From Sphingobacteriales bacterium (GTDB taxonomy: Bacteria; Bacteroidota; Bacteroidia; Chitinophagales; Chitinophagaceae), in assembly GCA_004144175.1 (NCBI GenBank), contig SEFT01000021.1, positions 1-58,608 on the forward strand: a DNA stretch of 58,608 nucleotides, written 5' to 3'. The translations under genes were made by a program, and so were the position numbers. Below the pieces are notes generated by a model. That model did not search any database and was not told the DNA's origin. It saw only the letters and a program-made list of their open reading frames with translations. Positions 23,481-23,891 of this stretch are shown in pieces. Numbering within the stretch: position 1 is the first letter of the stretch; every line of letters starts with the position of its first letter.

Positions 23481-23554
23481 TGATCCGGATTGGATTCGAA
23501 CCAATGACCCTCAGCTTAGAAGGCTGATGCTCTATCCAACTGAGCTACCGGACC
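23481..23554 (-). tRNA. tRNA-Arg (anticodon UCU), intact copy
   Basis: A 74-nt cloverleaf read on the minus strand: acceptor GGTCCGG/CCGGATC (one G-T wobble), D arm GCTC...GAGC, anticodon stem TCAGC/GCTGA with loop CTTCTAA (anticodon TCT, reads AGA), T stem ATTGG/CCAAT fully paired, TTCGAAT loop, discriminator A, no encoded CCA. The first 23 nt also encode the last residues and stop codon of the GIY-YIG gene, so mature-tRNA processing and full-length nuclease mRNA exclude each other on one transcript. It probably has its own promoter inside that gene (23592-23621). Confidence 0.95.
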
Positions 23555-23786
23555 ATTTACTTTTTATATACTCTTTTCCTACTCCACTTTTCAAATATAC
23601 TTCTCTTTTTCTCGCTTCCAATCTTGTTGAATATTCTTCAACAAAAAACAAATCCCAAGGCACATATGGCTTTGTCGATTTGTTTTGTGCTTTGTTATGC
23701 TGCGACAAGCGTCTTGATACGTCAGATGTTAACCCGACATAGAACCTACCGTCTTTTTGACTGCGTAAAACGTAAACAAAGAACAT
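23532..23786 (-). CDS. stand-alone GIY-YIG nuclease, 3' end inside tRNA-Arg
   Basis: An 84-residue GIY-YIG-superfamily endonuclease. The family core is present: strand MFFVYVLRSQ (the YVL variant of the GIY half), FYVGLTSD (the YIG half, here YVG), catalytic-type Arg in RRLSQHN about 10 residues later, and Glu in the LEARKREVYLKSGVG segment, the metal-binding position. It is full length for the small UPF0213-type members. It starts 11 nt after the 3' end of the upstream defective tRNA-Arg and terminates in the D loop of the intact tRNA-Arg. Its tail WSGSSVG is simply translated tRNA. GAGGTG lies 2 nt before the ATG. Its position between two near-identical tRNAs suggests a tRNA-targeting mobile nuclease. 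Confidence 0.9.
   Translation of the reverse strand: MFFVYVLRSQKDGRFYVGLTSDVSRRLSQHNKAQNKSTKPYVPWDLFFVEEYSTRLEARKREVYLKSGVGKEYIKSKWSGSSVG
23592..23621 (-). promoter_or_regulatory. complete promoter inside the GIY-YIG gene, for tRNA-Arg
   Basis: On the minus strand TTG (23621-23619), 19 nt, TATATTTG (23599-23592): a perfect Bacteroidota consensus, 37 nt upstream of the intact tRNA-Arg 5' end. The TAT-TTG also encodes Tyr-Leu of the conserved YLKSG protein motif, so part of the match may be forced by the protein. Confidence 0.5.
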
Positions 23787-23797
23787 GACACCTCGTG

Positions 23798-23891
23798 TGA
23801 TCCGGATTGGATTCGAACCGGTGACCCTCAGCCCTGCCTGCCGGCAGGCAGGTTAGAAGGCTGATGCTCTATCCAACTGAGCTACCGGACC
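23798..23891 (-). pseudogene. defective tRNA-Arg (UCU) with palindromic insertion
   Basis: A 94-nt copy of the neighbouring tRNA-Arg, identical in acceptor, D arm and anticodon (TCT), but with two defects. A 20-nt palindrome is inserted between loop base 38 and stem base 39. The T stem reads ACCGG against CCAAT, giving two C-A mismatches where the intact copy pairs fully. The 5' strand of the T stem looks borrowed from another tRNA, a chimera with a break in the TTCGAAT loop. A functional product is unlikely unless the insert is removed. It is promoter-proximal to the nuclease gene, and RNase Z cleavage at its 3' end would free the nuclease mRNA. Confidence 0.8.
23833..23852. repeat. 20-nt perfect palindrome inserted in tRNA anticodon arm
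   Basis: CCTGCCTGCCGGCAGGCAGG, fully self-complementary, present only in the defective tRNA copy. The flanking bases match the intact tRNA exactly, so the insertion is precise and leaves no target duplication. No second copy was seen in the window. From memory, GGCAGG-type palindromes of this kind occur as dispersed short repeats in many Bacteroidota genomes. Confidence 0.9.

Follow-up and report, generated by a model that had tools for sequence, protein, structure and literature searches.

A bare GIY-YIG nuclease gene between an intact and a hairpin-split tRNA-Arg copy in a Sphingobacteriales bacterium: a probable selfish element of tRNA genes

In contig SEFT01000021.1 of a Sphingobacteriales bacterium, of which a stretch of 58,608 nucleotides was analysed (the window), a gene for a GIY-YIG nuclease of 84 amino acids lies between two copies of tRNA-Arg(UCU), and sequence comparisons with homologous loci make it highly probable that this arrangement represents a selfish mobile element associated with tRNA genes. 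We slightly favour the more detailed explanation that the locus is a copy of a selfish element which is widespread, very small (about 340 bases) and resident in tRNA genes. In this explanation, the nuclease would act at a cognate hairpin and the element would recombine with tRNA genes of the same isotype.

On the minus strand, the order of transcription is a likely promoter, a broken tRNA-Arg copy (23891-23797), the nuclease gene (23786-23532), an intact tRNA-Arg(UCU) copy (23554-23480) and a likely terminator. ARAGORN called tRNA-Arg(TCT) at 23480-23554(-) and at 23797-23891(-), and the Rfam model RF00005 scored these copies with 72.3 and 46.7 bits, respectively. The nuclease ORF begins 10 nt past the upstream copy if the end of that copy is taken from ARAGORN and 11 nt past it if taken from Rfam, and the stop codon of the ORF is located within the downstream copy. 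The encoded protein matched PF01541 (GIY-YIG) at 2.8e-16, GIY-YIG and T5orf172 being the only Pfam profiles that matched. ARAGORN, Rfam and PF01541 agree with a sequence-only reading of this DNA, which had placed a nuclease gene between two same-strand tRNA-Arg(UCU) copies and had it closing inside the second. That reading had also supposed that one tRNA copy works while the other decays, and indeed the downstream copy is intact and the upstream one is split by a palindrome, a feature which had gone unnoticed. The 20-nt perfect palindrome CCTGCCTGCCGGCAGGCAGG, a hairpin sequence at 23833-23852, sits in the anticodon arm between tRNA positions 39 and 40, so that the upstream copy has a length of 95 nt. 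It separates a 5' part (positions 1-39; 23853-23891, minus strand), which according to ARAGORN, Rfam and the loci of relatives keeps the native promoter side, from a 3' part (positions 40-75; 23797-23832, minus strand) with two T-arm substitutions relative to the intact copy. With up to three mismatches allowed, the window contained a single occurrence of the palindrome, and 100 shuffles contained none. When the genome was searched with the upstream tRNA-Arg copy, the only full-length matches were the two copies of the locus, and six others were partial.

The broken copy is preceded by TATAGATTTGC (23904-23914, minus strand), which, as judged from its sequence and the consensus, is likely a promoter element of the Bacteroidota type; similar sequences stand before the single tRNA-Arg of relatives. 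Past the intact tRNA, a hairpin with a T-run (23446-23475, minus strand) is, by its sequence, a likely terminator and matches the position of the relatives' terminators. In comparison to an empty site, the locus is longer by a stretch of 337 nt (23555-23891, minus strand), a length taken between the 5' ends of the two tRNA copies; the insertion boundary may fall at any point of the duplicated tRNA-Arg. This stretch contains only the GIY-YIG ORF and tRNA sequence, and the integrase that would characterize a tRNA-integrated island or prophage was not found in it. According to PMC3984707, mobile group I introns invade tRNA genes and some of them carry homing endonucleases. At the present locus, in contrast, no intron family was among the five Rfam matches obtained at E up to 1, and a whole spare tRNA, not splicing, keeps the function.

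The 297-aa gene that flanks the locus (23942-24835, minus strand) was used as bait for finding the empty site and was present in 10 of 12 relatives of the same genus. It had no Pfam match at E 1e-3, and we take it to be gldN-like. Beside it, nine of the 10 same-genus loci contain exactly one tRNA-Arg(UCU) and no nuclease, with promoter-like and terminator-like sequences in place, and at the tenth (L019) no tRNA was called; no match to the nuclease profile was obtained in loci L016-L033. The single tRNA-Arg of the nine empty sites was identical to the intact copy in four cases and differed from it by 1-3 mismatches in five. The idea that the duplicated tRNA is the scar of an insertion thus gains from this comparison of relatives, in which nine of 10 loci have a single tRNA-Arg without nuclease and a double tRNA without nuclease was not encountered. 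The same genome holds a second element, in a tRNA-Asp gene adjoining a gene that is presumably accA-like. A lone tRNA-Asp without nuclease occupies this site in seven same-genus relatives and in three more distant genomes, and no tRNA was called at the accA-like-gene loci of eight other relatives. Cognate empty sites, which are a mark of homing endonuclease genes, were found at both the Arg and the Asp site. An alteration of the carried tRNA that would make it resistant to cutting was also considered and is not supported at either of these two sites.

The association with tRNA genes extends far beyond this genus. Among 156 homologous loci, which are the best matches to a profile (A1) built mostly from tRNA-adjacent members and not a random draw, and which include 38 found with the window ORF and leave out many matches close to contig starts, a tRNA gene was located within 500 nt of the nuclease in 137 and within 150 nt in 118. 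In all 137 loci the neighbouring tRNA is encoded on the strand of the nuclease and in none on the opposite one. In contrast, another small GIY-YIG subfamily, used as control, had a tRNA within 500 nt in 0 of 30 loci, and strand and distance together rule out a chance neighbourhood. The 19 loci without a tRNA within 500 nt comprise 12 with less than 300 nt on one side of the ORF, six with full flanks and one with a tRNA beyond 500 nt; among the six ARAGORN-negative loci with full flanks, Rfam (E up to 0.05) found no tRNA in L055, L123, L126, L161 and L200 and a tRNA remnant in L127. With a second profile (A2), whose locus set overlaps the A1 set and is not independent of it (11 of 30 loci were already among the 156), a tRNA was found at 28 of 30 loci; 17 of the 19 new loci had a same-strand tRNA and the two misses were truncated.

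Profile A1 had matches in 188 of 298 genomes of the order (E up to 1e-3), a patchy presence, and, at E up to 1e-12, in 206 of the 395 genomes sampled across the phylum, tRNA adjacency having been checked in the fetched loci. The number of nuclease matches per genome reached at least 13, and the partner tRNA varied between loci, none being fixed. Relatives, with taxa given by record title, occur in Acidobacteria, Omnitrophota, Chloroflexi, Elusimicrobia and CPR bacteria, and since these are metagenome-assembled genomes some of the contigs may be misplaced. No nuclease match was obtained among plasmids at E 1e-5, and phages gave two weak matches, both from Staphylococcus phages. Some loci are peculiar. 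At L099 (G039:C36), an ARAGORN tRNA with a TTA (stop-reading) anticodon adjoins a nuclease of the group and is possibly the decayed copy of another tRNA. Draft contigs stop 2 to 193 nt past the nuclease domain at L003, L048, L179, L181, L191, L192, L196 and L197, and the elements seem to break draft assemblies. At L014 (G016:C137), a row of very similar nuclease copies has no tRNA call; this lineage may no longer reside in tRNA genes, or the contig may be too short to include the tRNA.

In 122 of the 137 loci, the tRNA was accompanied by a further, partial copy of itself, compared to 36 of 685 when a tRNA of another isotype was used as query and 0 of 685 for shuffled tRNA. Interruptions of these copies are mostly GC-rich hairpins. 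Of 335 internal junctions, 182, distributed over 91 of the 122 loci, have a palindrome no more than 3 nt away (random positions, 80 of 5083), and 31 of the 122 loci have a perfect palindrome at no junction. In a set of 75 distinct inserts between 5' and 3' parts, gathered from 66 loci without requiring palindromes, 63 contain a perfect hairpin with a stem of 6 or more (shuffles, 113 of 3750). The junctions fall at different tRNA positions, namely 27/45 for Ala and Pro, 38/51, 41/51 or 51/60 for Asp, 25/36 for Asn and 22/23 or 39/40 for Arg; because the junction varies by lineage, insertion into the anticodon arm was rejected as a universal rule.

Copies upstream of the ORF (n=104) had the 5' end only in 59 cases, the 3' end only in 20, neither in 21 and both in four, and copies downstream of it (n=90) had the 3' end only in 70, the 5' end only in four, neither in 11 and both in five. 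Such a mirrored truncation is expected for the remains of an element inside a tRNA gene. As one or both ends went undetected in 185 of the 194 broken copies, with divergence being able to mimic loss, it is unlikely that the broken copy is a working tRNA-like RNA. The layouts of the 137 loci were an intact tRNA upstream with broken copies downstream only (41), an intact tRNA upstream with broken copies on both sides (34), an intact tRNA downstream with a broken copy upstream, as in the window (31), and others or no broken copy (31). The surmise that very small elements of this kind form a general class, which a lack of association between GIY-YIG genes and tRNA genes would have contradicted, holds with regard to tRNA adjacency (137 of 156 loci, control 0 of 30) and broken copies (122 of 137), and so does that of an ORF closed by host tRNA, with the stop lying in tRNA-derived sequence at 51 of 137 loci. 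Tandem arrays have a period of 315-365 nt. Locus L076 consists of five near-identical units of 365 nt with broken copies and one intact tRNA, and L142, read from a series of five ORFs spaced by 315 nt, likewise has near-identical units with broken copies and one intact tRNA. Upstream of the nuclease at L131 (G065:C59) is a row of several tRNA-Met copies that are truncated and have the hairpin TCCGCCAAAGGCGGA, and these are possibly nuclease-free derivative units.

The protein itself appears to be maintained. The residues of the active site, Y5, Y16, R26, H30 and E62, were kept in 146, 151, 151, 152 and 151 of 152 ORFs, respectively, and the median dN/dS (NG86) was 0.166 over the 69 of 262 pairs whose dS fell between 0.05 and 3, most dS values being greater than 1, which indicates that the nuclease is under selection. 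A structure model of the 84-aa protein was confident (pLDDT 92.9), and the closest solved structures by sequence were UPF0213 1zg2 (1e-14) and SLX1 7cq2 (4e-8). A tree was calculated from the first 68 residues, leaving out the end that overlaps the tRNA, and its 67 columns leave 80 of 149 inner branches open. The amino acid of the neighbouring tRNA required 45 changes on this tree, compared to a shuffled mean of 90.2. For the 106 rows with host codes, it required 31 changes (68.7 when shuffled and 65.2 when shuffled within host family) and the host family required 48 (65.9 when shuffled), indicating that the nuclease phylogeny follows tRNA isotype better than host family. The hairpin class, TCCCG or CCTG, required a single change over 73 loci (shuffled mean 15.3, minimum 11). 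For all hairpin classes at 90 loci, 14 changes were counted against 32.1 after shuffling; shuffling within tRNA isotype gave a mean of 21.25, with 0 of 500 as low as 14. Accordingly placed are the tRNA-Arg elements L089 and L120, which have TCCCG hairpins and group apart from CCTG-type Arg elements, and the tRNA-Leu element L174 (CCTG), which groups with the latter. As far as this tree can tell, the hairpin travels with the nuclease and not with the tRNA, the tracking by class being almost perfect.

Hairpins of these classes are not confined to the elements. Of the 298 genomes of the order, 27 contained the exact 20-mer palindrome. It was found in 12 of 19 genomes with an A2-type nuclease (98 bits or more, a cut-off picked post hoc that defines the clade by score), in 11 of them away from any listed nuclease match, and anywhere in 15 of the 279 other genomes (Fisher p 1e-8, uncorrected for kinship). 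In G063, the lone copy off the nuclease lies where a contig ends and is possibly part of an element, and the three other copies in the genome studied here have no tRNA nearby. Palindromes of the type TCCCG...CGGGA were clearly above a reversed control in nine of the 12 genomes tested, the excess being weaker in G125 (45 vs 24) and hardly any in this genome (25 vs 19) and in G145 (24 vs 21). Large genome-wide excesses were observed in G587 (75 vs 1), G484 (72 vs 3) and G251 (54 vs 8). Since TCCCG-type palindromes are common off the elements in several genomes, hairpins could enter broken copies by themselves. Dispersed palindromes help a reading akin to that of REP/RAYT systems and equally allow for self-moving hairpins. 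RAYT (TnpA-REP) is an HUH/Y1 transposase, and REP palindromes are dispersed and co-vary in class with the nuclease lineage. The present elements resemble such systems in the pairing of palindrome class with nuclease lineage and in the dispersal of palindromes in the genome, and differ from them in that the protein is a GIY-YIG nuclease tied to tRNA genes and not an HUH/Y1 transposase.

A unit consists of a stand-alone GIY-YIG gene and a host tRNA in broken form, which as a rule is split by a GC-rich hairpin, and one intact tRNA is kept at the locus, so that the host survives. We propose the following mechanism. The nuclease may recognise the hairpin and would cut or nick it in a structure-specific manner, as its Slx1/UPF0213-like relatives suggest; for the hairpin being its substrate, we consider the case evenly balanced. 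Cutting of the hairpin would free or expose DNA that ends in tRNA sequence, and these ends would recombine with a tRNA gene of matching isotype, where a single crossover would give T-GIY-T' or T'-GIY-T and further rounds of recombination would build tandem arrays. As the homology for integration would come from tRNA sequence, isotype fidelity would be achieved without a sequence-reading domain. Present-day mobility is presumed in this scheme, the sample being of one genome per species, in which polymorphic sites are not visible. Action at the hairpin is favoured by the bare domain of 84 aa, the structure-specific relatives (SLX1), the unchanged carried tRNAs and the pairing of hairpin and nuclease, and a point against it is that the position of the hairpin in the tRNA differs by lineage.

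Alternatively, and in our estimation somewhat unlikely, the nuclease could cut the tRNA gene itself, which the sequence-only reading had supposed to be the target, and the element be copied in by break repair, with the hairpin protecting broken copies from cutting or back-recombination or being a secondary invader. Isotype tracking and empty sites would fit such homing, for which SegB, a free-standing GIY-YIG homing endonuclease of T-even phages, serves as model; the published text on SegB states that it cuts inside tRNA genes and amplifies units of tRNA and segB by homologous recombination (PMC13096335), and the T-loop sequence GTTCGAATC, present in both tRNA-Arg copies, fits the reverse complement of the SegB motif reported there. 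Also in T4, segB lies between same-strand tRNAs, with tRNA-Arg 5 nt past its stop and tRNA-Ile 41 nt before its start. Yet the intact tRNA in the element has the native sequence and would itself be cut, a bare domain of 84 aa offers little room for a sequence-reading part, the hairpin class goes with the nuclease and not with the tRNA, and a relation to SegB is not detectable past the start of the GIY-YIG motif. SegB-driven tRNA amplification is described in the same text as an anti-defence route in phage T6 (PMC13096335), and a device that raises tRNA dosage, or provides tRNA-like decoys against tRNA-cutting toxins or defences, might be imagined here as well. This we regard as improbable, in view of arrays that multiply nuclease and broken copies around a single intact tRNA and of the 185 of 194 broken copies in which one or both ends went undetected. 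In the UPF0213/Slx1 group, small GIY-YIG proteins are also taken as housekeeping enzymes, and an ordinary host gene might stand beside tRNA genes by chance, the tRNA duplications being unrelated. Such a coincidence is hardly credible given the tRNA adjacency in 137 of 156 loci compared to 0 of 30 in the other subfamily, the patchy presence (188 of 298 genomes), the empty sites, up to at least 13 matches per genome and the lack of a fixed tRNA partner, and it seems refuted by the variable sites and partners.

The explanation we favour, an element whose nuclease would act at its own hairpin, has its nearest precedent in SegB. Both nucleases adjoin same-strand tRNA genes (137 of 156 loci for the element), and tandem repeats of tRNA and nuclease, recombination-dependent amplification and microhomology between the tRNA 5' end and the nuclease 3' end are further likenesses that the SegB text provides (PMC13096335). 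In that text, SegB is reported for phage genomes and an isotype preference is not among the properties reported (PMC13096335). SegB has 221 aa in contrast to the 84 aa of the element nuclease; BLASTP gave no meaningful alignment between them and profile A1 matched SegB marginally (E 0.08), so that a sequence relation was not found. Around T4 segB, neither a broken tRNA copy within 400 nt nor a GC-rich hairpin within 200 nt was detected. We place the element with tRNA-associated GIY-YIG selfish nucleases and not with the SegB family. UPF0213/Slx1 nucleases share the minimal domain without extra parts and, to our knowledge, are not known to be linked to tRNA genes. Rickettsia palindromic elements are also short palindromic inserts in genes, with the difference that those inserts are longer, and we know of no nuclease partner for them. 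Among the listed literature matches, whose titles and abstract openings were covered, with preprints and most subscription papers outside the scope, this arrangement was not found for bacterial chromosomes, and the accessible part of the 2006 survey of the GIY-YIG superfamily contained no statement on tRNA neighbours (PMC1564403).

As it looks, essential tRNA genes have a common parasite in this element, nuclease matches being present in 206 of the 395 genomes sampled from the phylum, and some broken tRNA genes and contig ends may be explained by it. The pairs of nuclease and hairpin form a natural series in which the specificity of a bare GIY-YIG domain can be studied, and the nuclease is a possible mover of short palindromes that are scattered across these genomes. 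We tentatively consider, as a possibility short of being probable, that it constitutes a new class of transposable element, in which a bare GIY-YIG nuclease recognises its own class of hairpin and the tRNA serves as homing address and end sequence. If this were true, units of about 315-365 nt would rank with the smallest autonomous mobile elements, and these enzymes could also be the hitherto missing driver of the dispersed short palindromes of Bacteroidota.
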